Of a stretch of DNA of 64,000 nucleotides, positions 18,686 to 56,286 are shown piece by piece. Location: positions 992,001 through 1,056,000 of the forward strand of contig NC_020514.1 in assembly GCF_000347635.1 (NCBI RefSeq), read 5' to 3'. The stretch comes from Paraglaciecola psychrophila 170. Its GTDB lineage: Bacteria; Pseudomonadota; Gammaproteobacteria; Enterobacterales; Alteromonadaceae. The position numbers were made by a program, and so were the translations under genes. Below the pieces are notes generated by a model that made no database searches, was not told the DNA's origin, and was given only the letters and a program-made list of their open reading frames with translations. Within the stretch, counting starts at the first letter, position 1; every line of letters begins with the position of its first letter.

Positions 18686-19281
18686 TCAATACCTTTTTGT
18701 GCTTTTATGCCATTGTCGAAAGCATGTTTGACAGGTCTTACTTCGCTGACTGTATCTGCCATTTCGATGATTGAGCGATGGCAAGCGCGGCCAGTGATAA
18801 CCACGTGTTGATCTTTTGGCCTGGCGGTTAACGCAGCCAATACTTCATCCAAATCGATATATTTGTAAGTGACCATGTAGGTAATTTCATCTAACAGCAC
18901 CACATCAATAGACGGGTCTTGCAGTAATTTTTTACTGTGTTCCCAAGCCGCTTGTGCCGCTAGTTTATCCAAGTCTTTGTCTTGGGTTTCCCAAGTAAAA
19001 CCGGTGCCCATTACATGAAATTCCACGCCGTTTTTTTCCAATAAATTGCGTTCACCGCATTCCCAGCCACCTTTGACATATTGCACCACTGAGGCTTTTA
19101 ATCCGTGTCCAACCGCTCGGGCAATGGTACCAAAACCTGAGGTGGACTTGCCTTTGCCGTTGCCGGTAAGCACTAGCAGTAGCCCCTTATCTTCTTGGGC
19201 AGCGGCAATACGTTCGTCTACTTTGGCTTTTTGTTCTTGCATACGCGTTTTATGGCGGTCGTTATCTTTTTCATCAGTCAT
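18679..19281 (-). CDS. btuR: Corrinoid adenosyltransferase BtuR/CobO
   Basis: 200 residues. The P-loop [20 protein letters not shown], the [17 protein letters not shown] segment and [20 protein letters not shown] identify the CobA/BtuR/CobO family, which transfers the adenosyl group of ATP to cob(I)alamin or its precursors. Length is as usual for the family. It overlaps cobQ by 8 bases and btuF by 7, consistent with translational coupling in the operon. Confidence 0.95.
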
Positions 19282-20807
19282 GGTGTTTGCTCTTTGTTTG
19301 ATTTGAGATAAATGTGTGTATTTTTTGCCAGTCTAGATGTGCCTTACAGGCATCGGCTAGACGGTCTAATTCATGTTCTTGTTGGCTAGCATAAGTGTCG
19401 ACTTTATCGGTATCTGCACCAGCCCAAGCGGTAATCTGTTGCAACGCTTGTGGTGAGTCGAACATGCCATGTAAATAACTGCCTGCCACTTGGTTATCTG
19501 CGCTGATACAGCCCTCAAGTTGGCCATCATCTAGTTGTCCATTATCTAATAAAGCAAAAGCGTTAAAACCATCCTCTCGTTCAGTGTGTCCAACATGAAT
19601 TTGATAGCCTGACACTGTTACTTCGATACCATTATTGTGAACGTCTGCTTGTAATCTTAATTTACCCTGACTGTGTGTCAGCTGCTTTTCACTGTGTAGT
19701 GTGGTGTGTATGGGCAGATACCCCAGCCCCTTAGATGACCCTATCGTGCCTTCAATCCCTTTGGGGTCGTGGGTGGTTTGCCCTAACATTTGATAACCGC
19801 CACAGATTCCTAATACTTTGCCTGCGTAGCGCAAGTGTCTGGCAATATCTTTATCCCAGCCATGTTTTCTAAGCAGTTCAAGATCTGCTCTAACATCTTT
19901 ACTACCAGGTAAAATAATAAGATCAGCTGCGGATATTCTTTGACCTTGGCGCACAAAGGTCAGTTCAATTTGAGGATGAGCCCGCAGCATATCAAAGTCG
20001 GTATGGTTACTGATCTGCGAAAATACGGGTACCGCAACACGCAAACGTATATCGTCTTGGTCAATCGTTTGATTGGCTTGAATGGCATCTTCTTCGGCGA
20101 GTTGTAAGTCCATTAAGTAAGGCAATACCCCTAAAACCGGTTTATGGGTGCGTTGTTCTAACCAGTCTAAACCACTTTGTAGTAAGGTAATATCCCCACG
20201 AAACTTATTGATCACAAAACCAACGACACGGTTTTGTTCACTTGCCGAAAGTAGTTCTAATGTGCCGACTAAATGGGCACACGCACCACCCTTGTCTATA
20301 TCCGCCACTATGATCACTGGGCAGTTCACTGCTTCGGTAAACCTCATGTTGGCTATATCACCTTCACGCAAATTGATTTCCGCTGGATTACCCGCACCTT
20401 CAACCATGATAACTTGATACTGATTTACTAAACGCTGGTGGGAATCTAGTACCGCTTGCATCGCCACTTTTTTGTAGTCATGATAATCCTGAGCCTGCAT
20501 GTTACTGATGGCTTTACCATGAACAATGACCTGAGCATCGGTATCGCTGCTTGGCTTCAGTAATACTGGATTCATATCAACATGAGGTGCTACACCTGCA
20601 GCTTGTGCTTGTAACGCTTGGGCACGACCTATTTTCACCTCCGTCAGCAGTCACCGCAATATTTAATGCCATGTTTTGTGGTTTAAATGGCGCGACCTGA
20701 TATCCCAAACGTTTTAAACAACGACAAAATCCTGCTACCAACACACTTTTTCCCGCATCGGATGTGGTGCCTTGGATCATCAAAGTGGCGGCTTGAGTGT
20801 GTGTCAT
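19274..20807 (-). CDS. cobQ: Cobyric acid synthase CobQ, apparent +1 frameshift
   Basis: The first about 57 codons ([37 protein letters not shown]) run into a wrong frame at 20632-20635. Removing one base of that four-base run restores [17 protein letters not shown] and the remaining 450 residues: the dethiobiotin-synthetase-like half and a class I glutamine amidotransferase half with the nucleophile Cys in [15 protein letters not shown] and the His near YLHGMFDSP. CobQ amidates adenosylcobyrinic acid a,c-diamide at four positions. It lies 3 bases after cobC and overlaps btuR. The downstream step enzyme CbiB is not in this operon. All else is intact, so a sequencing error is plausible. Confidence 0.85.
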
Positions 20808-35737: not shown

Positions 35738-35761
35738 AAATTATGATGGGTGATGAGATGG
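35738..35761 (+). repeat. REP-like repeat beside decayed RAYT
   Basis: AAATTATGATGGGTGATGAG followed by ATGG. The same 24-mer with two changes occurs on the minus strand at 53341-53364. It shares AAATT and ATGGGTG with the units at 14350-14423 and occupies the same position relative to its transposase gene. The IS110 element begins right at its end. Confidence 0.7.
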
Positions 35762-37276
35762 ACGCTCCCTAATACGGCGTCAATGCCCCAAAATAGTATT
35801 TTCAACGAGACTATTTACATAGGGAGCATCCAAGATAAAGCTTAAAACAATTACTATCGATTTAGCAAAGAATGTATTTCAAGTATGTGGTGTGAACGAG
35901 CATATAAAACCGCAGTTTAATAAGAAATTAAAGCGCAGTGAGTTACTAGATTTCATGCGCCAACAATCACCGACTACGGTAGTCATGGAGGCTTGTTATT
36001 CATCTCATTACTGGGGCCGTGAAATCGCTAAGCTAGGCTATGATACTAAGCTTATTCCCACTCAACATGTCACGCCCTTTATGCGAGGTAACAATAATGA
36101 CCACAACGATGGCTTTGCTATAGCAGAAGCCAGTCAACGAGCCAATATTCGGTTTGTGCCTTTGAAGTCTGAGTACCGGTAAGAAATATTTTGTTTGCAT
36201 TGTATCCGCGAAAGTCTCATCAAAAACAAAACAGCGTTGATTAATCAACCGAGGGGATTATTAAGTGAGTTCGGCGTGGTATTTCCCTGTGGTCACAAGG
36301 CATTACTAGGGTGGATTAAAGAGTATAATAGATAACCCTCAATACAGTCACCGATTACAAAATTTGGTGATAGATATATTGATTGAATATGAAACCATAA
36401 TCAAGCGCCTAAAAGACATAGAGCAACAATTACGGATGTTTTTTGAAGGAAGTGAAAGCGGTTGAATATTACTTGGCATACCTGGAATAGTTATCATTAA
36501 TGCTTCAGCCCCTTTTAGCCAGTATCGACAAAGGCCAAGCGTTTAATTGTCCCAAAGAGTTTACAATGTGGTTAGGGCTAACGCCCAAACAACATACCTC
36601 GGGTAATATCAGCAAGATGGGCGGTATTACCAAACGAGGAGACCGTCACTTACGTAAACAATTAGTACACGGTGCAAGGTCATTTGTGAGTCGTGCGGCT
36701 AAAAAAACAGACGCATTATCATTATGGGCAACGAAGCTTCGCGTCACTAAACCGTTTAATAAGGTGGTCGTTGCTATAGCACACCGTTTAGCACGTTTAA
36801 TTTGGATATTACTTACGCGCCAAGAACATTACAGCGCAATACCAACCGGTGTGAGTGCATAATATGAAACAGTTTACGTTATCTCGGTTTTGCTCAATTC
36901 CGGACGAGAAAAAGGCGTTAAGCCATTGTGGTTGTTGTGGAAGGCAAGACTCGGGATAACACTTTTTACTTAACCTGCTTAGCCAGAATATGATGAAGAA
37001 AACGGTCTACCCTACCTCATCAAAGCCTGACTATGACAAGGATTATTAATCCGTGTGGTTGTATTTTAAAGGCGATAAGGTACTCGGTAAGGACTTCATC
37101 AGAGGCCTGAGATGATAAAACCATTTCAATTAAGAACCTGAATATATGTCAGAACTAAGCTACTTTAAGGCTATTTCATTTACGTTGACGAGTGGGAATA
37201 TAGAAAAAAGACGAAGAATTTGTGCTGTAAACGGCATGGAAAGATTAGTTATGCTTTGACTTCGGGAGAGCGTCCA
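35761..37276 (+). mobile_element. IS110-family insertion sequence (degraded)
   Basis: About 1.5 kb. The left end GACGCTCCCT at 35761 and the sequence GGGAGAGCGTCC ending at 37276 form an imperfect inverted pair that may mark its borders; GGGAGCATCC at 35821 is a second inner copy. It contains a decayed IS110 transposase (35837-36862) and about 400 bases of non-coding downstream DNA. The left border touches the REP-like repeat at 35738-35761 and the right border lies 8 bases before a truncated AraC gene, so insertion or rearrangement here probably removed that gene's front part. Confidence 0.7.
35837..36862 (+). pseudogene. IS110-family transposase, degraded
   Basis: The DEDD domain is visible at 35837-36180: LKTITIDLAKNVFQVCGVN, SPTTVVMEACYSSHYWGREI, LIPTQHVTPFMRGNNNDHND. 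A stop at 36181 and at least two frame changes follow (SLIKNKTALINQPRGLLSEF near 36215-36270). The C-terminal transposase_20 domain is intact from 36500: LASIDKGQAFNCPKEFTMWL, GLTPKQHTSGNISKMGGITK, RGDRHLRKQLVHGARSFV. The usual ATG is replaced by an ATA-containing sequence. It cannot make a full transposase as read. Confidence 0.9.
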
Positions 37277-42814: not shown

Positions 42815-43945
42815 TTAATCTTTTCTATACTCAATATTCTGATGTTTTTTTCGATATTGCCTGGGGTTGCAGTTTAAATGTTGACTAAAACACCGTGAAA
42901 AATATAGGGGATCATCATAACCCACAGTTTCTGCTACTTTGTTTATGGGGTGTTGCGTTTGCGCGAGTAGCTGTGCCGCTCTTGCCATTCGGCGTTCGTC
43001 ACGAAAATTTAGCATGGTTGAGCCAGTTTGTTGCTTGAATAAAGCAGAGAGGCGGGCAGGTGACAAGCCCACTAAGGCGGCCAAGGTATCGATAGTGAAT
43101 GACTGATTAAAATTAAGGGCAATGTAGTCGGCAATAAGGCGAATACGTTTGTCGAAGGGGATCAAACTTTTTTTCGGCGCTAGCTGGCGACTGCGAATTA
43201 AAATCTGCTCGAGTATATTTTTCTTTAGGGCTTCTGAAAATTCAGAGGCCTGTAAATGTAACTCGCCAATTTGCTCAAATAGGGATTTTAATATGCCATA
43301 GCAGCTTGTAGAGGTTTGAATGTGATGGATGCCTGGGCCAATTTCTGGCCATTGTAATAACTCCAGCCAGCGTTCTTCTTGCTGAAAGTACACCCATTGA
43401 TGAACCCATAAATCACAGGATTGTTCCCGTCTGTAGTCATAAAGCGCATCAGGTGACAGTAAAATCAGGTCACCTGGTTTAGAGACAAACTGATCGCGAA
43501 TACAGTTGTAATGTCCGTTTCCTTCAATCGTCATTTGTAGGCTCCAGCCAAGTTTGCTGTGAGGTCTTCTGGTGACGTAGTCACTAAAGTCATCGCGTTT
43601 ATGACGTGTTGTGCCTGGTGTAATGTGATTGGTAAAAAGGGTGTCCACGTCTTCAAGTGAGTTGTAGATCATAATCAGAAACCGCGAGGCATTGAACTCA
43701 CTGATCCCGCCGAAGGCAGCAAAATCGGCCTGCCACTCTTTTAATAAATTTTGGGTGTTTGCCTGACGTTGAAATATCGAATGAGTTATTTCGCTGGGTA
43801 GATTTTGTGTCAGGTAATGAAAAGGACTACCAGTGTGATCCCCCATTATAACACGCAGGCACGAAATGAACTCCGCTCTGTTTACCGCCTGATCTCTGAG
43901 CATGCGCCAGTGCGTGTTCGCTGCCTTTTGAATATCTGTCAGCAA
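42815..43945 (-). CDS. AraC-family regulator with AraC-type sugar-binding domain
   Basis: 376 residues. Residues about 110-260 resemble the effector domain of AraC (RPHSKLGWSLQMTIEGNGHY, SKPGDLILLSPDALYDYRRE, LWVHQWVYFQQEERWLELLQ). The C-terminus has two helix-turn-helix motifs (IDTLAALVGLSPARLSALFK; HPINKVAETVGYDDPLYFSR). About 90 extra N-terminal residues precede the family core, so the start could be further downstream, for instance the ATG for MIYNSLEDVDTLF. It is divergent from the GH3 glucosidase gene across a 360-base gap and is the likely regulator of that locus. No operator was recognised in the gap. Confidence 0.85.
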   Translation of the reverse strand: MLTDIQKAANTHWRMLRDQAVNRAEFISCLRVIMGDHTGSPFHYLTQNLPSEITHSIFQRQANTQNLLKEWQADFAAFGGISEFNASRFLIMIYNSLEDVDTLFTNHITPGTTRHKRDDFSDYVTRRPHSKLGWSLQMTIEGNGHYNCIRDQFVSKPGDLILLSPDALYDYRREQSCDLWVHQWVYFQQEERWLELLQWPEIGPGIHHIQTSTSCYGILKSLFEQIGELHLQASEFSEALKKNILEQILIRSRQLAPKKSLIPFDKRIRLIADYIALNFNQSFTIDTLAALVGLSPARLSALFKQQTGSTMLNFRDERRMARAAQLLAQTQHPINKVAETVGYDDPLYFSRCFSQHLNCNPRQYRKKHQNIEYRKD

Positions 43946-44305
43946 TAGAATTATCCATATAAATAAGTGGTTTCTGTATTCTATTTATTTTCTCTAACTG
44001 AAACAATCACCACAATGCATTAGGTTAACAAGAAATTAAAATAATGTAATTAAAACGTCAATATATTGCGACAACTATCAATTCTAGTTATTTATCCACA
44101 TAGGATAGCGAAATACAAGGGTGATCAGCCAATATGAACAGAGCGAGAGCTAGTAATACAGATGCCTGCGGATTGGAACACTAAAGAAATAGTAACGCTA
44201 ATGAGCATTATTTGAACATTTTAAGACACAAAACTTTGCTCAGCTGTGCTGCTCAATTGTTATTTTATTCCATATAGTGCGGTAGCACTTTTACAGAAGA
44301 CAAAC

Positions 44306-46892
44306 ATGACTAAACACTTGCTTACATGCGTTTTTATCTACGGTTTAATGTGTTGGATGCCATTAAATGCTTATGCTGACTCGAAACAAGAAATAGATAC
44401 TGTGGATCTAAAAATACAAGCTAGGGTTAATGCCCTGTTAGAAAAAATGACGGTGGCAGAAAAGGTGGCTTTGCTTTCAGGGGCCAATTTTTGGAAAACG
44501 GTTGCCATAGAGCGTTTGGCTATCCCGTCCATCCAAGTAACAGATGGCCCTAACGGAGTGCGTTCCAATAACAGCGACCCCACGACGTTGTTTCCTGTAG
44601 GTGTGGCTATGGCGTCAACTTGGAACCCCACTTTAATCCAGAATGCCGCTGCTGCTATGGGCAGAGAAACTCGCGCCATGGGCGCGCACGTTTTGCTGGG
44701 GCCTAATGTCAATATTCAAAGAGTGCCATTGGCCGGCCGTAATTTTGAGGCTTATTCGGAAGATCCCTATCTTAGTGCTGAGATTGGGCTTGGTTTTGTG
44801 TTAGGCGTGCAAAGCGAAAACATAGGTACATCACTCAAACATTTTGTGGCAAACAACCAAGAGTATATGCGCCGAACAGGTAGCTCTAATGTGGATCAGC
44901 GCACATTACGTGAAATCTATATGCCCGCATTTGAAAAGATCGTGAAACAAGCAAAGCCTTGGACTGTTATGGCAGCTTACAACAAGGTGAATGGGGTCTT
45001 TATGACTGAAAATAAAACCTTGCTGCAAGATGTACTCAAAGATGAATGGGGCTTCAATGGCGTCGTAGTTTCAGATTGGGGAGCACTGCATACCACTGCT
45101 CCAGCAATTGAAGCTGGGCTTGATCTTGAAATGCCTGGGCCTGCAAAACATTATGGTGCCGAATTGTTGGCTGCAATTGAGCAAGGCGATGTTGACGTAA
45201 ATTCACTCAATAACAGTGTTAAACGCCTACTGACGCTGATTATTAAAACAGGTGCGATGGATACTCGTACCTCGGCGACACAGGCCGGTGCTAATAGCGA
45301 AGTGAACTCCCTTGCCCATCAGCGTTTGAGTCAGCAAGTGGCGGAAGAGGCAATCACACTGTTAAAAAACGAAAAAAATCTACTGCCCCTTAATCTTAAA
45401 AAATATCACCTCCATGGCCGTTATTGGCCCAAATGCTGACGCCGCAATTGTACAAGGTGGCGGTAGCTCCCAAGTGGTGCCTTTTCAACAGACAACGCCT
45501 CTGGAAGGTTTACAAGCGTTAGTGGGTGAGACGATAAAAGTTGCATATGCACAAGGCGTGGATAATGAGCCTGAACCGGCAACACTGGATGCTAGGCTAC
45601 TCAGCCCAGACAAACAGAGAACTCAGCAAGGTTTACGGCTGGAATATTTTGGAAATCAAGATTTTTCAGGCGAACCAGTATTTGTTTCCACAGATAGTCA
45701 TTTTTCAAAATTGGGATTTGCCGATGAAATTCCAGCCGCTGCTAAGAATCGTTTTTCTGCGCGCTGGCAGGGGTATTTTTGGCCTAAAGTCAGTGGGCGC
45801 TACGAATTTGAACTGGTGCATTTGTCCAGTGCCACACTCACGATTGATGGGCAGGAAATCATCAATGACAGTTTGGATAAAGAGCACACCGGCTTTTTAG
45901 AATTTTTGAATATAGGTGCCCGCAAGGCAGGCATAGAGCTTAAAGCCGGGGTAGCCTATCCGTTCAAGCTGGATTATGTGGCCGGTAAAACCCCGGTACC
46001 ACTCAATTTGTTGCGTTTGGCAAGTCGTAGTCCTTCTGGTGAATTTTCTGAAGCGGTGAAACTCGCCAAAGAGTCAGATGTAGCAGTGGTGTTTATAGGT
46101 GTGTCAACCACATCAGAAAGTGAAGGTAGAGACCGCTCTGATTTAGCATTGTTTGGAAAGCAAAATGCGTTGTTGGAGGCGGTATTAAAGGTTAACAAAA
46201 ATACCATTGTTGTTTTGAATAACGGCGCACCACTGGCAATGCCATGGATAGATCAAGCGAGTACCGTTATTGAAGCTTGGTTGCCTGGGCAAGAGGGCGG
46301 ACATGCCATTGCCAATGTACTGTTTGGGCATACCAACCCCTCTGGAAAATTACCGGTTTCGTTCCCCAAACGTCTAAAAGACAATCCTAGCTATCTGAAT
46401 TACCCCGGCGATCAAGACGCTAACTACGGAGAGGGGATCTTTGTAGGTTATCGGTACTACGATAAAAAGGACATTACCCCCCTGTTTCCTTTTGGACACG
46501 GGCTGTCGTATACCCACTTTGACTACAGTGATTTGACTCTATCGAATGCGGTATTTGACACAGAGGATCTGCTAGTTTCTATCAATATTAAAAATACGGG
46601 TGCCATGACCGGCAAAGAAGTGGTTCAGCTTTATGTCCAAGACATCGAGTCTAAAGTTGTTCGCCCTGTCAAAGAGCTCAAGGGATTTAATAAAGTGTCT
46701 TTACGTCCAGGTGAGCTTAAGAGAATCACCTTTACATTAACCAAAAGAGACTTAAGTTATTTCGATGTTCACAGCCAAGCATGGCGAGCAGACGCAGGAA
46801 AATTTACCGTTTTAGTGGGGAGTTCTTCACGAGACATTCGTCAGAAAGTGTCATTTCAGCTACCAAAAAATTATAGCCTTGAGATCAATTAG
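44306..46892 (+). CDS. GH3 beta-glucosidase-like enzyme with PA14 domain, apparent frameshift
   Basis: About 860 residues when one base of the A6 run at 45398-45403 is removed, which joins LLKNEKNLLPLNLKN to ITSMAVIGPNADAAIVQGGG. A signal peptide (residues 1-25) starts at ATG 44306. The GH3 barrel contains VTDGPNGVRSNNSDPTTLFP, LKHFVANNQE and the nucleophile Asp257 in GVVVSDWGALHTT. The second domain holds GVSTTSESEGRDRSDLALF, which includes the likely acid/base Glu, interrupted by a PA14 insert (LRLEYFGNQDFSGEPVFVS, ARWQGYFWPKVSGRYEFELV). An FnIII-like domain ends the protein. It cleaves a terminal beta-glycoside, probably in the periplasm. The substrate is unknown. Neighbours are a TonB receptor and a sulfatase. 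Confidence 0.88.
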
Positions 46893-46983
46893 GTCCGAAT
46901 ACAGCAATACGAAAGCTCGCAAAACAAGAGTGCTCCAGTTGAATTTGAAAGATTAATATAATAATAATTAAGGATACGAATAT

Positions 46984-49234
46984 ATGAACAACCTTGGAAA
47001 AAGAAGTCGAGTGGCGTCATCGATATCACTTGCAATAGCGACTTTGATGGCCTCACCTCTGATTGCTGCAGAAAGCGATTATGAACTTGAAAAAATTACA
47101 GTCACTGCATCTAAAAGAGTCGAAAACTTACAAGATGTGGCCTCGGCCGTTACTGCGTTGTCGGCAAAGGATCTCATCAATAGTCAAATTACCCGCACGG
47201 AAGATCTCGTTAATTTATCTCCCTCTTTAACGTTTCAAAGCGGCGGCAGTGACAATGCATCCTCATTTAACATTCGCGGTATTGGCACACAGTCATATAG
47301 TTCGGGCGTTGAGCCGAGTATCGCGACCGTTATCGATGGTGTGATAATGGGACGTTCGGGCATGGCCTTTAATGAGCTTTTAGATGTGCAGCGTGTTGAA
47401 GTATTACGTGGTCCCCAAGGCATGTTGTTTGGAAAAAATGCTTCAGGTGGCGTGGTGCAGATTATCACCAATGATCCTGGCGATACCTTTGAAGCGGCTA
47501 TTAATTCAAAAGCAATTCTATCTGGCACCGATGAGTATCGAGTGAGTGGCATGGTCTCTATGCCAGTCTCAGACACTCTGGGTATCCGTGTGGCTGCGTT
47601 TACCACAGAGCGTGATGATCATATTAATAATGTGTTCAATGACCGTGATGTAAATGGCAGCAAAAACAAAGGTGGAAGAGTAAAAATCAAGTGGCAGCCC
47701 ACTGATGATTTGAGTGTGAAATGGAGCAGCGACTTTAGTGAAAGAAGCGGAGAGTGTTGTCAGCCTCAGCCGCGATCGGCTACTCCCACCGAGGCGTTTT
47801 TTTTAGGCGCAGTCAGCGCATCTGAAGATAACGACAGCATCAACGTCAGTGCAGAGCTCTACAATGAGTCGGAATCATGGGGTCACTCCTTAGAAGCTAA
47901 CTGGGAGCTTGGTGAATATACCTTAACGTCAATCTCGGCTTATCGAGATTATAATTCTAAGTCGAATCAGGATGTTGATGGCACCCCCCTGACGTTGCTT
48001 GATATCAACGCGGGCGAGTCTAATCAAACCCAACAAACCCAAGAACTACGCCTGACTTCACCTCAAAATCAAACTCTGACGTATGTGGTGGGCCTGTATT
48101 ATTTTGAACAGCGCATGAATCGAGATTTCCAGCGGGTTTATCACGATATTTTTGGAAATTTTGTCCCTACATTTCCAGGCCTGAAATTTGGCTCTCAATA
48201 CGAGGCGACGGTTGATAGCATTAGTTATGCGGGATTCGGTCAGTTTGAGGTCAACATCAGTGATACCTTCCGCCTACTCGGCGGCGCTCGCTACACCAAC
48301 GAGCAATTGGACTTCGAATTCGAAAGAGAACAAGGGGCAGGCGTTTATGCACCTATTGTGGCTAACCAAGCCTTGTATCAAGATTCTACCAAGGATACTG
48401 ACTTCTCATTCAAAGTGGGCGCTCAGTGGGACATGAATAAAGACGTAATGAGTTATGTGACCCTTACCGAGGGGTACAAAGGACCAGCCTTTAATGTCAT
48501 TTTTGAAATGACCAGTGATAACACGCTACCGGTTGCACCTGAAACTAGCAACGCTATTGAAGTGGGGATTAAGTCCAGATTGTTCAATAACCATTTGGTG
48601 CTTAACACCGCCCTGTTTCAGAGCAACTATGACAATTTTCAAGCTCAAGCTCAAGATGCCAATTCATCCGCCTTTACCTTGCTTAACGCAGGTGAGGTTC
48701 GTACTCGCGGGATAGAGGTAGATTTCCAGGCGAGACCTAATGAAGATATGATGATTTCAGGTGGACTTGCTTACATTGATGCACAAATTGTCGATTTTAA
48801 AGGTGGGCCATGCAGTCCACGGCAAGTTGCGATTAACGAAAATTCTTGTGGGGGTAACAGTCAAGACTTGTCTGGTAAAGACCTACCTTTTTTCGCCAAA
48901 CGTGAAATTTAATTTGTCAGTAGAGTACTTTATGTCCTTAGGTGGAGATCATGAATTAGTGCCTCGTGCTACTTATCGCTGGCAAGGTGATGAGTTGTTT
49001 TCTATGGATCAGGACAAAGAAAAAAGCCAAGACGCTTACGGTGTTTTGGATATCTCTGTAAGACTAGAATCCCTAGACCAATCCTATAGCGTCACCTTGT
49101 TTGTTAATAACGCTTTAGACGAAAATTATGTCGATGCCATTATTCACAATAATATCTGGGCCGGATCCTACGACCATTTTTATTCGGCAAAAAGTGAACG
49201 TACTGCTGGTATCGACTTCAGATACACTTGGTAG
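46984..49234 (+). CDS. TonB-dependent receptor, apparent frameshift
   Basis: About 750 residues. Signal peptide, then a TonB-box region (YELEKITVTASKRVENLQDV), the plug (LVNLSPSLTFQSGGSDNASS, FNIRGIGTQSYSSGVEPSIA, LDVQRVEVLRGPQGMLFGKN) and a long barrel. At the T6 run 48888-48893 the frame runs into a stop; removing one T gives KDLPFSPNVKFNLSVEYF and the final barrel strands ending in SERTAGIDFRYTW, as expected for an outer-membrane terminus. The plug type is that of receptors for organic substrates in sphingomonads and alteromonads, not of siderophore receptors only. It lies 91 bases after the GH3 gene. A hairpin terminator follows. Confidence 0.88.
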
Positions 49235-49265
49235 CCGCTAGCCATACCCGTTAAGTTACAGCACT

Positions 49266-49295
49266 AACCGTCTGCTTTGAAATGAGCAGGCGGTT
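49266..49295 (+). terminator. Rho-independent terminator after the TonB receptor gene
   Basis: AACCGTCTGCT, 8-base loop, AGCAGGCGGTT: an 11-bp stem with one G-U pair, followed by CCTTTTGT. It lies 31 bases after the receptor stop codon and 35 bases before the sulfatase start, so the sulfatase may have its own promoter or rely on readthrough. Confidence 0.8.
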
Positions 49296-49330
49296 CCTTT
49301 TGTCACTATGGAGCAAAAAAGGAGCAAAAA

Positions 49331-50857
49331 ATGTACTACCAGAAATTTTTATTATCTATCTCGTTTTTTATGTTGTCGATGGTTGGACTCACTGTGGCCG
49401 CGGAACAAGCACTAAGCGAAGAAATAGCTAATAACGAAGTCGTGACAACAAGTGAGATTACTAGCCCGCCAGACAAACCGAATATTGTGTTTATATTTGC
49501 CGATGATTTGGGATACGGTGATATTGGGGCGTACGGCTCAACAACCATCAACACTCCCAATATCGACAAAATGGCCGCGCAAGGAGCCAAGTTTGACGAG
49601 TTTTATGCTGCATCACCGGTGTGTACACCTTCTCGCGCGGGTTTGCTAACTGGCCGTTACCCCATTCGTCAGGGGATCCATAATGTGTTTTTCCCAGAAA
49701 GCTTCCAGGGAATGGATCCAGAAGAAATTACCATTGCTGAAGTATTAAAGGGTGCTGGGTACGCCACTGGTTTAGTGGGTAAATGGCACTTGGGTCACCA
49801 CGAACAGTATATGCCTTGGAATCAGGGATTTGATGAATTTTTTGGGCTACCTTACAGCAACGACATGGGTGGCTTATATTATTTCAATAACAAAGACATA
49901 GATTTTGAAGAAGTGGATCAGCGTTACATGACCAAAACCTATACGGATCAGGCGCTGCAATTCATTGATAAACATCAGGAGCAGCCCTTCTTTTTATATC
50001 TCGCTCATAATATGCCTCACGTGCCTATTTATGCTTCGCCAGAATTTGAAGGTCAATCGGCTGGTGGCGCTTACGGCGACGTGGTTGAAGAATTGGACTG
50101 GAGTGTCGGCCAGGTTCTAAAAAGATTAGACGAACTCAATCTGTCAGAAAATACGCTGGTGATTTTCACCAGCGATAATGGTCCATGGTTACTGATGGGG
50201 GATGAGGGAGGGTCTGCTGGGCCGCTTCGAGAGGGCAAACAATTTACATTTGAAGGCGGCATGAGAGTACCTACTGTTGCCTATTGGCCAGGGACAATTA
50301 GCCAAGGAACAAAACCTCAGGGATTGGCGACTATGATGGACTGGTTGCCGACCTTTGCAAATTTGGCAAATGTGCCTGTTCCTGCTGACCGTGTTATTGA
50401 TGGCAGAGATATCACCGGTTTATTAACCGGCAAGGGAACACGAGCTGAGCAAACATTGTTTTATTACATGAACGGCGAATTACGTGCTTATCGTAATGGC
50501 AATTGGAAGATTAAACTGCCTTATAAAGGCCAAGTCGGGTTTCTCTCTTGGTTACAAGATGGGTTTGTTTCAGGCCATGAGTTACTGCTGTTTAACCTTA
50601 AGGATGATCCGGGTGAAAGCAACAATTTAGTCGCTGAAAATGCTAACAGAGTAGAGGTTATGCTTGCAGAGATTGATGAATTTAAAGCCTCGTTGGGTAC
50701 TTTACCAGAGGCCAAAAAAACCGGGAAAAATATGGATTATGGCCCCTATATTCGACTTGTTTCAGGTTTAGGCGCAAAAATGTTGCTGGTATTTGTACTT
50801 GGCTCGTTTTTTATATTCTGGGTGATACGCAAGTGTATACGTTTAGCTCGACGCTAG
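49331..50857 (+). CDS. Sulfatase (formylglycine-dependent, arylsulfatase type)
   Basis: 508 residues. A signal peptide is followed by the metal-binding NIVFIFADDLGYGDIGAYGS and the sulfatase signature SPVCTPSRAGLLTGRYPIRQ, with Cys98 as the residue converted to formylglycine. GYATGLVGKWHLGHHEQYMP and TSDNGPWLLMGDEGG complete the active site. A hydrophobic C-terminal segment (LLVFVLGSFFIFWVIRKCIR) suggests membrane anchoring. It would remove a sulfate ester from a substrate in the periplasm or at the surface. A GGAG lies shortly upstream of ATG. No sulfatase-maturating enzyme gene is in the window. It is grouped with a GH3 enzyme, receptor and hydroxylase. Confidence 0.92.
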   Translation: MYYQKFLLSISFFMLSMVGLTVAAEQALSEEIANNEVVTTSEITSPPDKPNIVFIFADDLGYGDIGAYGSTTINTPNIDKMAAQGAKFDEFYAASPVCTPSRAGLLTGRYPIRQGIHNVFFPESFQGMDPEEITIAEVLKGAGYATGLVGKWHLGHHEQYMPWNQGFDEFFGLPYSNDMGGLYYFNNKDIDFEEVDQRYMTKTYTDQALQFIDKHQEQPFFLYLAHNMPHVPIYASPEFEGQSAGGAYGDVVEELDWSVGQVLKRLDELNLSENTLVIFTSDNGPWLLMGDEGGSAGPLREGKQFTFEGGMRVPTVAYWPGTISQGTKPQGLATMMDWLPTFANLANVPVPADRVIDGRDITGLLTGKGTRAEQTLFYYMNGELRAYRNGNWKIKLPYKGQVGFLSWLQDGFVSGHELLLFNLKDDPGESNNLVAENANRVEVMLAEIDEFKASLGTLPEAKKTGKNMDYGPYIRLVSGLGAKMLLVFVLGSFFIFWVIRKCIRLARR

Positions 50858-50933
50858 TGGCCTTGATTGTTCTGCCTGTTAGTACTGGGCAGTTACTGCA
50901 AAGCAGATTATTGTGCATAGGAGGACAGATGTG

Positions 50934-51455
50934 ATGAAAGGGTTTACCTACTATCTAGCCACTGCGATGTTGCTTGTATCAGTGAGTACCGTTGGGGCAG
51001 CAGAGCATGGTAAAAACATCTCTGAATTAGAGCAACTCGTGATTGAAAGAGATTGCGAGGCGCTCGCCATAGCCTATACCCATGGGGTGGATCTTGAACA
51101 CCCCGAAAAGGTGGCACAATTATTCACTAATGATGGTCTTTGGCAGATTGGCAACCAGAAAGTGCAAGGACGTGATGCCATTCATACCTTTTTTATTTCA
51201 CAGCAGGCACAAAAAGATTTTGTGAGTCGACATGTCTTAAGCAATCATAAGGTCACAGTTAATAACAGCTCTAGTGCCAGTGGAATTTCATATGTAACTT
51301 TGTATCACTTCAAGGGTGAGCTGGGCAGTGAAACCATGATTGACACTGGCCATCCATATGCAGTTGTGGTGTATCAAGACGAATATGTGGCCACTAAACA
51401 AGGTTGGAAAATAAAAAGCCGGAATATATTGCCTAGTTTTGTTGGAAAAAAATAA
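50934..51455 (+). CDS. Secreted SnoaL-like (NTF2-fold) protein
   Basis: About 173 residues from ATG 50934, which has AGGAGG 9 bases upstream. A signal peptide (LATAMLLVSVSTVGAA) is followed by a SnoaL-like domain: YTHGVDLEHPEKVAQLFTND, GLWQIGNQKVQGRDAIHTFF, RHVLSNHKVTVNN and YAVVVYQDEYVATKQGWKIK. This fold includes isomerases, dehydratases and hydroxylating proteins acting on steroids and polyketides, but catalysis cannot be assigned from sequence. It lies between the sulfatase and the hydroxylase in the same direction. Confidence 0.8.
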   Translation: MKGFTYYLATAMLLVSVSTVGAAEHGKNISELEQLVIERDCEALAIAYTHGVDLEHPEKVAQLFTNDGLWQIGNQKVQGRDAIHTFFISQQAQKDFVSRHVLSNHKVTVNNSSSASGISYVTLYHFKGELGSETMIDTGHPYAVVVYQDEYVATKQGWKIKSRNILPSFVGKK

Positions 51456-51501
51456 TCTTAAAGTAAAGCGAACAACCTATTGAATTAACGAGAGAAGATG
51501 A

Positions 51502-52596
51502 ATGAACATTATTACTTATGCAACACCCTTTTTTTTATTGGCTATATTGCTCGAACTGGCCTGGGGTTGGTTTAGAAAAAACAACACTTATCGTCTTAAT
51601 GACAGTGTGAATAGTCTTTCTCTAGGTATGCTGCGCACCTTAAGCCAAATTATGTTTATTGGTATTGGCGCGGTGGTTTTTGCAAAAGTAGAAAATGAAT
51701 GGGCTATTTTTTCATTTGATAAAAGTCTTGCGTTGCATTGGATTGTAGCCATCCTCATTTACGATTTTTGCTACTACTGGTTTCATCGCATCAGCCATGA
51801 ACGCCAGTTTTTCTGGGGCTCTCATGTAGTGCATCACCAAAGTGAAGACTATAATTTGTCAACGGCTTTAAGGCAGACAGGCACCGGTTTATTTACTACT
51901 TGGATATTCTTTGTACCGTGTTTTTTGCTTGGCATCCCGCTTTATATGTATATAACCATTTCTACTGGGCACCTTGTCTATCAATTTTGGATACATACTC
52001 AACACATTCCCAAACTGGGATTTCTTGAGTGGTTTTTAGTGACCCCATCGAACCATCGCGTTCATCATGCGCAAAATGCTCGATACATAGATAAGAATTA
52101 CGGTGGGTTATTCATTATATGGGACCGGATATTTGGGACCTTCGCTGAAGAAGATGAAAGTGAAGATATTATCTATGGTTTGAGAACGGCCCTAAATAGT
52201 TGGAACCCCTTGTGGGCCAACGTGCATGTATTTGTTGGTATGTTCCGTGACGCCTGTAGAGCCGAAAGTTACCGAGATAAGTGGGCAATGTTATTCTCTC
52301 GCACGGGTTGGCGCCCTAGTGATGTAGCACGTAAATACCCCATTGAGAAAACCGACCTGGCAAATTTTCACAAATATAACCCCACGTTATCGTCAAAAGT
52401 AAAAGTGATGGTTTTTTTATACTATATGCTGATGTTGGGATTTTTTATGTGGCTTATGGCCAATGTCGGATCCATGTCGTATCTGTATCAAGTTGGCGGC
52501 GGCTTAATATTGACTTTGTTTGCGTTGGTGCTTGGTGTGGTAATGAACAATCGCAATTCCAACAAAGCCATTCTAAAAAAGGGCAATACCGGCTAG
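51502..52596 (+). CDS. Sterol desaturase/fatty acid hydroxylase family membrane protein
   Basis: 364 residues with several membrane helices and the di-iron histidine boxes: YYWFHRISHERQFFWGSHVV (HxxxH), HHQSEDYNLSTALRQT after HVVHH, and NHRVHHAQN. Family members hydroxylate or desaturate sterols and other lipids, or cleave ether lipids, using oxygen. An additional C-terminal hydrophobic region (residues about 300-345) follows. It begins 46 bases after the SnoaL-like gene with GAGAAG as a modest ribosome-binding site. Its presence in a locus with a sulfatase and glycosidase hints at a sterol-like or lipid substrate. Confidence 0.88.
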   Translation: MNIITYATPFFLLAILLELAWGWFRKNNTYRLNDSVNSLSLGMLRTLSQIMFIGIGAVVFAKVENEWAIFSFDKSLALHWIVAILIYDFCYYWFHRISHERQFFWGSHVVHHQSEDYNLSTALRQTGTGLFTTWIFFVPCFLLGIPLYMYITISTGHLVYQFWIHTQHIPKLGFLEWFLVTPSNHRVHHAQNARYIDKNYGGLFIIWDRIFGTFAEEDESEDIIYGLRTALNSWNPLWANVHVFVGMFRDACRAESYRDKWAMLFSRTGWRPSDVARKYPIEKTDLANFHKYNPTLSSKVKVMVFLYYMLMLGFFMWLMANVGSMSYLYQVGGGLILTLFALVLGVVMNNRNSNKAILKKGNTG

Positions 52597-52838: not shown

Positions 52839-53165
52839 ATGAATGAAGTTGTTATTTTGAAGACGTTTCTTACAGCTGTCACGCCTAAAATGTATAAAGT
52901 TAGACGAGCGGCATTAACAAATTGTGTGAGCAGTTTGTTAGATGGAGCTAAAGTCAGTGTAACCTTTATGGGACGCGGGATTTCATATTCAGTATATGAA
53001 AAAAATCTCATCAAACAAGCTGACCGTTTGTTGTCTAATAAACATGTTGTGAATGAACAATTACCCATCTACCGAGCAATCTGTACGCAATATACGAATG
53101 CTTCATCACGTTCTATTATTTTGATTAACTGGTCGGAATTAGATACGTATAAAGTGAACAGCTGA
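52839..53165 (+). pseudogene. IS4-family transposase, N-terminal remnant
   Basis: 108 residues: ALTNCVSSLLDGAKVSVTFM, GRGISYSVYEKNLIKQADRL, LSNKHVVNEQLPIYRAICTQ and IILINWSELDTYKVNS match the opening of IS4-type transposases, where the first catalytic Asp region is usually WSDLD; here it is WSELD. The rest is missing after 53165. The short stretch to 53340 shows no further homology. A GGGGTCTGAGTCTGGAAT repeat motif lies just upstream at about 52718. Confidence 0.8.
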
Positions 53166-53340
53166 TTTCGTTATTATTTGTGATCAAATTGCGATTTAAT
53201 ATACTTATACACACCACATACTTTAAAAACATTTTTGCTAAATCAAAAACCGTTGTTTATATATTATCTTGGACGTTCGTTATGACAATAGTCTGTTTAA
53301 ATATACTATTCTGGCGTATTGAGGCCTTATTATGTAGCGT

Positions 53341-53364
53341 GCATCTCATCACCCACCATAATTT
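53341..53364 (-). repeat. Second copy of the RAYT-side 24-bp repeat
   Basis: AAATTATGGTGGGTGATGAG and ATGC on the minus strand, two changes from 35738-35761. It begins 3 bases after the stop codon of the helicase gene. No intact RAYT is adjacent. Confidence 0.7.
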
Positions 53365-53366
53365 AG

Positions 53367-56286
53367 CTAAAGATAAGATTCCAACTCAGGCCATTGAATG
53401 CTTGCTGGGTCTCTGCCATTTTTACAGCTTAATGCTTCGTCGCCTTTAAAGTTTCGACATCCCCAAAAGTCACCTTTAGGCCCTTTTCTTAGTACCATTT
53501 CTGCGTCGCATTTATCACAAATTGGGATAATATGGTTACAGTTCGTATCGAGGCATAGCTTAAAGCCAGTATGGCGTTTACGCGTCATCGGACTAGAACA
53601 TTGCTGGCAAGGTTGTTCTTTATGCCTACATCGAGGAAATAAAGAACAACAATAAAAAATACCATAACGACCAGTTTGTTTTTTTAACTACGCCAGTATC
53701 GCAACGCATGCAATTAATATCATCGGTATACACTTGCTCGTTTTCACTGCTGAACTCGTCTAGTTCTATATCGTGCTCCGCCATTAGCTCCTGCACAAAA
53801 CCACTGGTATTGGCCATATCTGCAATAATATAAACCCTATGTCTTGCGCGCGTGAGTGCGACATAAAAAAGTCGCCTTTCTTCTGCGTGGGGGTAATCTT
53901 CCTGCGGGGGTAAAAGTGCATCTAAAATAGCCGGTGTGGCTTTTTCGGAAGGAAAGCCATGTTTACCCTTTTGCAGGCCGATGATGACCACGTAATCTGC
54001 TTCTTTACCTTTGGCGGCATGAAAGGTGTGAGCTTGCATTTTTAATAGAGGATATTTAGCGCTGAGTGTTTGAATATCAGCATGACTTGGAAGTTTAAAC
54101 CCGAACCGTGCTAACAAATATACGGTAACGGGCTTACATGTTTTCGAGTAAATAGCCTGTAATACATCGTCTACAGCGCCGTTAGATAATTCTATTAGTG
54201 AGCTTTGATAATTAGCGACTGTGTGATCCCCTCTTCTTAATAGTGAAATCGCGGGTGTGGCAACATGGGTTAGCGAGGTGATTGTTTTGTGTAGTTGAGC
54301 GGGGTTTTTACTAATGAAGTCTGAGGTGACTTGCCCGATTTTATTATTAAAGCGAAACGTTACATCTAGTTCGGTTTGCGTAGTCAAGCCAAAGTACTTT
54401 GCAAATTGGGTGGTTAATCTTATGTCTGCGCCACTAAATCGATAGATAGCTTGCCAATCATCACCAACAGCAAAAACAGAGCTACCATTATTGTTATCAC
54501 GCAGTGCTTTGACTAATCTCGCTCTAGGCTTAGATATATCCTGAAACTCATCCACCATAATGCATCGCCATGGAGATGTAAAAAGACCAGATTCAACGTA
54601 ATCTATCGCCTTGATAATCATGTCTTCAAAGTCGACTTCATCTCGCTGATGTAAATGGTGGTTGTAAGATGACATTATAGGTTTAAGCAATGCTAATGCT
54701 GTTTCTGCTTGTTTAGTATCCTCGGCCCTGTTGATGATATCTGTTTGGGCTTTTTCATCTAAATCTGCGGCTTTATAAAGTCCGAGTAATTTACCGAAAA
54801 GCTCAGCTAAAACGCTTATTCTTCCCGTTTCCCTTAAGCTTGCTAAGATGGATTCAATAGGCAAAATTTCATAGTCAATTTTATGTTCAGATAAAGCGTT
54901 TTGCAGTTCGTTCAATAAAGTATCTTGCTTATGCTGTGCATAAGTTAACGTTACACATCTAGTGTTATAACGTTGATGTGTGGCCTTTTTCCACGCTATA
55001 GATGCGTGGTATTGGTCTTTATCAATATACGGCGCAGTATTACCTGCTTCATCGACGCCATAATATTCGATATAAAGTTCATATTCAGGCAAGTAAAAGT
55101 CAGGTTTATACTGCCTGCGCGCCACTGTTTTTACATCAAATTGATATGCTGCTGCGTATTCGTAATCTATGCCATGATAAAAAAGCCAGTTGGCAATATA
55201 GAGCTCACCAAAGCTTTTTACTTTATCTCCTTTAAGACTAAGGATATCGTTATCATTTAAGTAGTGGTAATAATCGCCAAGGGTTTGAAAGTCAAAATCA
55301 TTCTTTTCTACATAATAATATTGACTGAAGTAATCTAACACCCGTGCTCGATATTCTGACTGGTTTTCAATCAGAGATTCAAAAGAATTGTGTAACCACT
55401 CAGCTTTGACTTTTTCATCTTCAGCAAACACCGAAAGGCTGGGTCTTCCTCCTTCGACTTGTGAAATGATGCTAAGTCCTAGACTATGAAATGTGGCTGC
55501 TTTTATTTTATCTGTGGTCAGTTTATCTTGAATTCTTTGATTCATTTCATCAGCGGCTTTGCGACCGTAGGCAAGTAATAAAATATCATCATATTTTGCC
55601 TGCTGGCTCTGAACCAAATAGCCTGCTCTAGCGATCATTACGCTAGTTTTTCCGGTTCCAGCACCCGCGAGTAATAAATTATTATCGTCGTCAATAATGC
55701 ACGCTGTGCGTTGTCGCTCAGTTAAAGGGTTGGATTCAACCTGATCGAAAAATGATTTGTGATGCTGTAGTTGTTCTTTTACATAGCGGTGTTGGAAAAA
55801 ATGGGTGGCAACATTATCCCATTTTGAGTATTTGTCTAATAATTGAATTTTCTTTTCTATCAACGCTAAGCTGTTACTTTCCTTAATCCATGGAAACCAG
55901 CGACTACGCTCTTGCAGCGCTAAGGATTTAATGTCGCTGATGCGTGACTGACGCAAAAAACCATGGCTCAGAATGTTGGCTATTTTCTCAAGTAAAGCAT
56001 CAAGTTTAGCTATATTCGCGTTTACCCAATACTGGTCGAAACGCGTTTTTAAAAAGTGATCACTATGATAACCCATCATCGTTAACGTGACGTTTTGGTC
56101 AGCAGTCGAAAAATGAATAGTTTGACCCAAAAAACCAAACTTAAAAGATAATGGAGTGGTCACTTCACTCCATTGAATTTGCTGGTTGGTTTTGTTGTGT
56201 GTAACTGCTAAGGCATGCTCGTTAAAAGCTAATGGTATTTTATTAGAAAATATTCGACCGAATATACTGGGTACAATAGAATTCAT
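53367..56286 (-). CDS. Helicase IV (HelD)-like UvrD-family DNA helicase, apparent frameshift
   Basis: About 970 residues when one base of the T7 run 53679-53685 is removed. The N-terminal region (about 200 residues) is that of HelD-type helicases. Walker A is NLLLAGAGTGKTSVMIARAG; then LLLAYGRKAADEMNQRI, MVDEFQDISKPRARLVKAL (Walker B), VFAVGDDWQAIYRFSGADIR and HTFHAAKGKEADYVVIIGLQ follow, and VALTRARHRVYII closes the motor. The restored C-terminus carries topoisomerase-type zinc ribbons (NCMRCDTGVVKKQTGRYGIF, QPCQQCSSPMTRKR, CDKCDAEMVLRKGPKGDFWG). The protein unwinds DNA 3' to 5'. Without the correction the zinc ribbons are lost. Confidence 0.88.

Follow-up and report, generated by a model that had tools for sequence, protein, structure and literature searches.

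Human alkylglycerol monooxygenase (AGMO, TMEM195) cleaves ether lipids with the help of tetrahydrobiopterin. The enzyme has resisted purification (PMC3617469), and the residues listed for it in two papers are nine histidines, E137 and six others (PMC3617469, PMC7911779). The AGMO-related, prodigiosin-cyclising enzyme of Pseudoalteromonas rubra is a related system; the residue comparison given below covers human AGMO alone. Here we describe a locus of Paraglaciecola psychrophila 170T, at positions 42815-52596 of a 64,000-base window (the whole stretch analysed, 992001-1056000 of a single contig of 5,413,691 bases), in which a gene for an AGMO-like protein follows genes for a GH3 glycosidase, a TonB-dependent receptor, a sulfatase and a small SnoaL-like protein, with an AraC-family regulator at the other end. 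The former genus name of the species is Glaciecola. The source of Glaciecola psychrophila 170T was Arctic sea ice, and its genome was obtained by 454 GS-FLX sequencing at about 12-fold coverage (PMC3642286).

For the other genes, the described counterparts include the human sulfatases ARSA, GALNS and STS and the AraC protein of Escherichia coli. A further comparison is the deglycosylation of saponins by GH3 and GH39 enzymes in Sphingobium sp. RC1, where GH3 enzymes work on small glycosylated molecules, as is proposed for the locus; the main text of that paper mentions neither TonB nor monooxygenase, sterol desaturase or P450, and sulfatase was not among the terms searched for there (PMC10653915).

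A six-gene locus with a proposed sulfated glycoside substrate

The locus consists of one divergent regulator gene and five co-directional genes on the + strand, separated by gaps of only 91, 96, 55 and 46 bases. The six gene families named in the earlier note were all recovered with the list of open reading frames (ORFs) and domain searches. The locus is an ordered one, part or all of which was probably acquired, and it stands out by pairing an AGMO-like oxygenase with a sulfatase of the ARSA kind. The reading that we favour, tentatively and with somewhat less than even confidence, is that the locus was probably acquired horizontally and serves, together with TonB-dependent uptake, the use of a sulfated glycoside; the sugar would have the arabino or galacto configuration, and the aglycone would be lipid-like, an alkyl, ether or isoprenoid group more likely than a steroid. 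The gene families, the spacing, the AGMO residues, the AraC score, the recurrence in a second genome and the placement of the oxygenase among Pseudomonadales were computed, and from these we infer the substrate. The gene content also fits the earlier proposal of binding, desulfation and deglycosylation of a compound with a lipid-like part.

In the proposed pathway, the receptor would carry the sulfated glycoside into the periplasm, the membrane-anchored sulfatase would take off the sulfate ester and the GH3 exo-glycosidase would free the sugar. The arabinose-type AraC would sense the freed pentose, or a look-alike, and switch on the five genes. In the inner membrane, the aglycone would be oxidised by the AGMO-like di-iron enzyme, and the SnoaL-like protein would work on an intermediate. 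If this is true, TonB uptake, a sulfatase and an AGMO-type oxygenase are linked in one locus, which offers a testable genetic route by which sulfated glycosides or glycolipids could be broken down in cold seas, together with a bacterial setting for the AGMO enzyme family.

Recurrence in an uncultured Cellvibrionales genome

The nearest relatives of the sulfatase elsewhere were two copies, 77% and 70% identical, on two contigs (loci L055 and L056) of a metagenome-assembled genome (MAG), uncultured Cellvibrionales bacterium SRR5469033_bin.40. In L055, an AraC gene (42% identity to the window protein) diverges from a receptor (33%) and a sulfatase (77%). In L056, a sulfatase (70%), a SnoaL protein (30%), an AGMO protein (64%) and a GH3 of another type follow each other in that order. 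The MAG thus has both the AraC/receptor-sulfatase and the sulfatase-SnoaL-AGMO-GH3 arrangements, but it differs from the window in holding them on two contigs, in its two sulfatases being 68% identical to each other and in the type of GH3 beside AGMO. That sulfatase and AGMO recur in another order of bacteria, 64-77% identical and on either side of a SnoaL gene, is more than chance. The L055 contig ends just past its sulfatase, perhaps with the start of a new ORF as read by eye (L055:11531-11614), and the contig break could conceal a second sulfatase in tandem.

The set of six genes, whose conservation the earlier note had proposed as a check, proved to be rare, and none of the other loci examined had it as a single block. 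The remaining 39 of the 41 sulfatase loci were mostly from Bacteroidota (31-61% sulfatase identity). These 39, several of which end at contig ends, contained no homologue of the AraC, the receptor or the SnoaL protein (BLAST E <= 1e-8); GH3 was found in four and a distant FA_hydroxylase in one. Sulfatases at E <= 1e-130 were found in 4 of 390 genomes of the MAG's order, the MAG included, and at E <= 1e-70 in 10 of 196 genomes of the family, including P. psychrophila itself. Five plasmid records held sulfatases with 34-49% identity.

Other neighbourhoods varied. L126 has a sulfatase-receptor pair beside a P450 and sugar-oxidation genes, and L128 has sulfatase, AraC, receptor and ThuA genes with sugar-oxidation genes. 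L096 joins a sulfatase and a GH3 with GH2, ThuA, SDR and esterase genes, and L097 looks alike by eye, without the SDR. Some gene names in L126, L128 and L132 (GMC oxidoreductase, for example) were read by eye. The P450 gene of L126 (G764, L126:13281-14459) adjoins the receptor-sulfatase pair, and a FAS1_DH/MaoC-type protein is encoded at L126:17715-18278. None of the AGMO relatives in L152-L158 adjoins a sulfatase of this kind; in L158, a sulfatase of 33% identity lies about 3.5 kb off.

The last gene encodes an AGMO-like enzyme

The last gene (51502-52596, +; PF04116) had been described in the earlier note as a sterol-desaturase-family enzyme. The FA_hydroxylase superfamily holds, but all 16 listed human AGMO residues were matched in the window protein, in order and with the same spacing apart from one single-residue shift (offset 37, then 36). 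The nine histidines of human AGMO, H132-H225, correspond in motif and spacing to H95, H99, H108, H111, H112, H165, H185, H188 and H189. E137, the tetrahydrobiopterin residue, and Q162, D233, N235, Y236, W243 and D244 correspond to E100, Q125, D197, N199, Y200, W207 and D208. In an alignment of 46 proteins (L150, without a scored ORF, was absent), 40 had all 16 residues and the remaining six had 10-15. The other four FA_hydroxylase proteins of the genome (two of them encoded by short frames) had 15, 14, 13 and 10, and a paralogue, L003, had all 16 and was 48% identical to the window protein. This residue pattern sets the group apart from the genome's other FA_hydroxylase proteins. We therefore dropped the name sterol desaturase, a loose name for these proteins of about 410 aa, and the enzyme is better called AGMO-like on the strength of its residues.

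The window protein has 364 aa, compared to 416 aa in L056, and the match ends at L056 residue 352; beyond that residue, no match was found in any frame at E <= 1e-3. The nine helices of AGMO are incomplete, with the hydropathy segments at L056 354-404 absent from the window protein. Since these C-terminal helices are missing, we use the name AGMO-like rather than AGMO. Compared to the human enzyme, the window protein also differs in lying in a sulfatase-glycosidase locus. No solved relative was found by sequence.

To place the gene, we used a tree of 43 rows from which the divergent L005, L006 and L063 had been removed beforehand. The window gene fell in a set of nine rows, eight of them Pseudomonadales (100/98), and a branch at 95/91 parted L003 and 29 other Alteromonadaceae rows from the window and Pseudomonadales rows. 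The tree program warned that the long-branched L125 joins the window group; L125 is not part of the 100/98 set. Vertical descent of the gene was dropped as an explanation, given L003 and the 29 Alteromonadaceae rows across the 95/91 branch, and the placement among Pseudomonadales suggests that the gene was acquired by transfer. In the MAG's order, 65 of 390 genomes matched the window protein at E <= 1e-95. Of the 196 genomes sampled from the family, 95 matched at E <= 1e-40, a count that includes other types. No relative was found in viral contigs.

The sulfatase is related to ARSA, GALNS and STS

The sulfatase (49331-50857, +; PF00884, 3.6e-66) is of the S1 formylglycine type. The closest solved structures were human ARSA (4.6e-86), GALNS (1.3e-83) and STS (1.7e-83), with ARSA and GALNS scoring slightly above STS and with the ARSA match falling in two separate stretches. 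Polysaccharide sulfatases (S1_16, S1_15, S1_19 and carrageenan sulfatases) were also among the relatives. The window enzyme has the CXPXR motif of the human enzymes as C98-T-P-S-R102, and it differs from them in being bacterial with a single C-terminal anchor. D58, D59, C98, R102, K151, H230, D282, N283 and K303 were invariant in 15 of 15 aligned sequences, the window included, and we take D58, D59, D282, N283, K151 and K303 to be metal- or sulfate-binding positions. A simple hydropathy scan supported a signal segment and a C-terminal anchor, in line with the membrane anchoring claimed in the earlier note.

Two characterised bacterial sulfatases differ on steroids in one paper: PyuS was inactive on three steroid sulfates, whereas the arylsulfatase of Pseudomonas aeruginosa is described as hydrolysing such compounds (PMC8746622). 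The sulfatase family alone is thus indecisive on a steroid substrate. Of the two, PyuS is the more similar to the window sulfatase.

Glycosidase, receptor and SnoaL-like protein

The GH3 glycosidase was read from two frames, the first with the N-terminal catalytic barrel (44246-45439, +; PF00933, 1.2e-47) and the second with the C-terminal part (45414-46892, +; PF01915, PF07691 and PF14310). The PA14 domain predicted in the earlier note was found there together with an Fn3-like domain. The best NCBIfam model was NF041610, exo-alpha-1,6-L-arabinopyranosidase, and alpha-L-arabinopyranosidase was also the best model for the GH3 proteins of L055 and L100. One paper reports GH3 saponin hydrolases, arabinopyranosidase activity among them, and the title of one of its references describes a bifidobacterial arabinopyranosidase that is bifunctional with beta-D-galactopyranosidase (PMC10653915). 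It is because of this bifunctional enzyme that we call the sugar arabino- or galacto-configured; a glucoside is also possible.

The TonB-dependent receptor had both plug and barrel, again over two frames: the plug and most of the barrel in the first (46984-48912, +; PF07715, PF00593), and the end of the barrel in the second (48761-49234, +), where homology runs after about 48915. It was 43% identical to the receptor in L126 and 33% identical to that in L055, each of which lies beside a homologous sulfatase. The small SnoaL_4 protein (50913-51455, +; PF13577, 4.7e-21) had no solved relative found by sequence and shared 30% identity with its counterpart at the equivalent position of L056; 18 plasmid records held distant SnoaL proteins. 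The GH3 and SnoaL proteins had been described as secreted, and their N-termini look so when read by eye, but a hydropathy scan flagged no signal segment at its threshold.

An arabinose-type regulator

The regulator (42815-43945, -) scored 243.3 bits against NCBIfam NF007860, the arabinose AraC model, above the cut-off of 208. L055 and L128 each encode an AraC that also passed, with 212 and 271 bits, and a control, the AraC of L157, scored 58. The window, L055 and L128 regulators all adjoin or diverge from sulfatases that are at least 50% identical, or from the receptor of those sulfatases. Positions 38 and 95 of E. coli AraC presumably belong to the arabinose pocket. The equivalents of T24, R38, Y82, H93 and W95 were all kept in the window protein, and position 8 was outside the alignment. 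Positions 8, 24, 80, 82 and 93 were altered in a salicylate-responsive AraC variant (PMC6350385). The window regulator differs from E. coli AraC in its neighbouring genes, in a Tyr for H80 and in about 90 extra N-terminal residues; the L055 and L128 proteins have similar, alignable extensions.

The 300-base divergent stretch between the AraC and GH3 genes (43946-44245) is presumably the control region. It shared a single 9-mer with the corresponding intergenic region of L055, and no regulator site was found.

Weighing the explanations

Several results weigh against the favoured reading. For control by arabinose, no araI-like half-sites above shuffles were found in 43946-44245, the Tyr at H80 is shared by L055 and L128, R38 is lost in L128, and NF007860 was not among the families listed at E <= 1e-10 for the AraC of L101, a locus with a 42-44% identical sulfatase. 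A putative terminator-like hairpin (49266-49295, +; 12-pair stem, weak T tail) separates the receptor and the sulfatase. Such sites numbered 16 in the region scanned, compared to 10.9 +/- 3.0 in shuffles, and promoter-like sites were no commoner than in shuffles (22 compared to 24.9). For the sugar, the two GH3 pieces reached only 336 and 314 bits on NF041610 (cut-off 1300), a beta-glucosidase model followed closely with 309 and 282 bits, and most solved GH3 relatives are named beta-glucosidase. For the aglycone, the AGMO-like enzyme is short, and no genes for later steps on the aglycone were recognised by eye in the window. SnoaL matches at E <= 1e-8 were found in 1 of 321 genomes of the class, the genome's own. 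The identities to the MAG are uneven, being low for the receptor (33%), the AraC (42%) and the SnoaL protein (30%), and the nearest tree row of the AGMO-like gene was L152 (99/98) instead of the sulfatase-linked L056; these points suggest assembly of the block from parts, not a transfer in one piece. As sequenced, the GH3 and receptor genes are out of frame. Lastly, an S1 sulfatase needs a maturase, FGE or anSME, to be active. A genome search for FGE gave an OvoA-like protein as the sole hit (4 of 14 controls passed the cut-off of this search). One for anSME gave at best 22 bits with a cut-off of 349 (2 of 14 controls above it). The sulfatase would be either matured by an unrecognised maturase or idle. 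The OvoA-like protein (L151:853-2967), the only protein with an FGE domain found in the genome, also has DinB and methyltransferase domains.

A rather unlikely alternative is that the locus simply scavenges sulfated arabinan, galactan or similar oligosaccharides, with the last two genes as passengers. The polysaccharide sulfatases among the relatives, the related sulfatase among GH2, GH3 and ThuA genes in L096, the arabinose-type AraC and an arabinopyranosidase- or beta-glucosidase-like GH3 would all suit it. However, the window ORFs, read by eye, show no endo-acting or second carbohydrate-active gene, homologues of the AraC, receptor and SnoaL genes are absent from all 39 loci with a sulfatase outside the MAG (four of these have a GH3), and sulfatase, SnoaL and AGMO lie side by side in another order of bacteria as well. 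The import of sulfated saponins or sterol glycosides, followed by desulfation, deglycosylation and oxidation of the sterol part, is a possible but improbable account, close to the sterol or saponin aglycone of the earlier note. STS among the three nearest solved relatives, the arabinopyranosidase among GH3 saponin hydrolases, the reported activity of the P. aeruginosa enzyme and the P450 in L126 are in its favour, but ARSA and GALNS slightly outscore STS, the more similar PyuS was inactive on the steroid sulfates, and the oxygenase is AGMO-like by its residues. KshA_C (PF19298), a marker of the ring-degrading oxygenase KshA of steroid breakdown, gave no hit in the genome, in a search with weak controls (1 of 14 gave a signal, none over the cut-off). 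A steroid aglycone is thus possible and not specifically supported. Our literature searches found no on-topic work on the use of sulfated steroids or saponins by marine bacteria through TonB and sulfatases, none that combined steroid sulfate, TonB and sterol desaturase, and no marine-bacterial work on seminolipid and arylsulfatase A. The last search concerns a version of the lipid-like reading that we consider very doubtful, in which a sulfated ether glycolipid is dismantled: the receptor, the ARSA-like sulfatase and the GH3 would strip the sulfo-sugar headgroup and the AGMO-like enzyme would cleave the O-alkyl ether. In mammals, ARSA and a galactosidase strip the sulfo-sugar headgroup of seminolipid. 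To our knowledge, no bacterial catabolic locus for sulfated ether glycolipids has been described.

A decaying acquired island, with true pseudogenes for GH3, receptor and AGMO and with a sulfatase that stays unmatured, is also unlikely. Pointing in this direction are the two frameshifts, the shortening of one gene, the failure to find FGE or anSME in the genome and the different genes after recX in the one relative compared (G516). The break in GH3 lies in an A-rich stretch at about 45364-45403, and that in the receptor lies near a T run at 48888; for the L055 receptor, the match in frame 2 ends at 48882 and that in frame 3 begins at 48968. Both breaks thus adjoin homopolymers, and the frames on either side are long. 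In addition, the catalytic residues of the sulfatase and the oxygenase are kept. Since the genome was sequenced by 454 at about 12-fold coverage (PMC3642286), and since a helicase gene and cobQ in the window are split likewise, homopolymer errors are a likelier cause of the GH3 and receptor frameshifts than decay.

Surroundings of the locus

The UvrD-like helicase gene (named by eye; 53388-56286, -) shifts to another frame next to the T run at 53679, and its relative in G522 is one frame of 1036 aa. The cobQ gene (also named by eye) of a cobalamin cluster, at 19274-20638 and upstream to about 20800 (-), is split over two frames, and such splits in the window are probably assembly errors. The GC content of the locus (0.437) is near that of the window (0.422), and base composition is therefore of little help. 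In G516, the only relative compared on that side, different genes come after recX and the BMT5-like gene, which is consistent with a variable site adjoining recX. An ORF at 52839-53165 was considered as a transposase remnant and dropped, as it had no Pfam match and the surrounding DNA had no plasmid match. A repeat of 191 bases, with its copies 77% identical and in inverse orientation, was found at 53176-53364 and 35738-35928.

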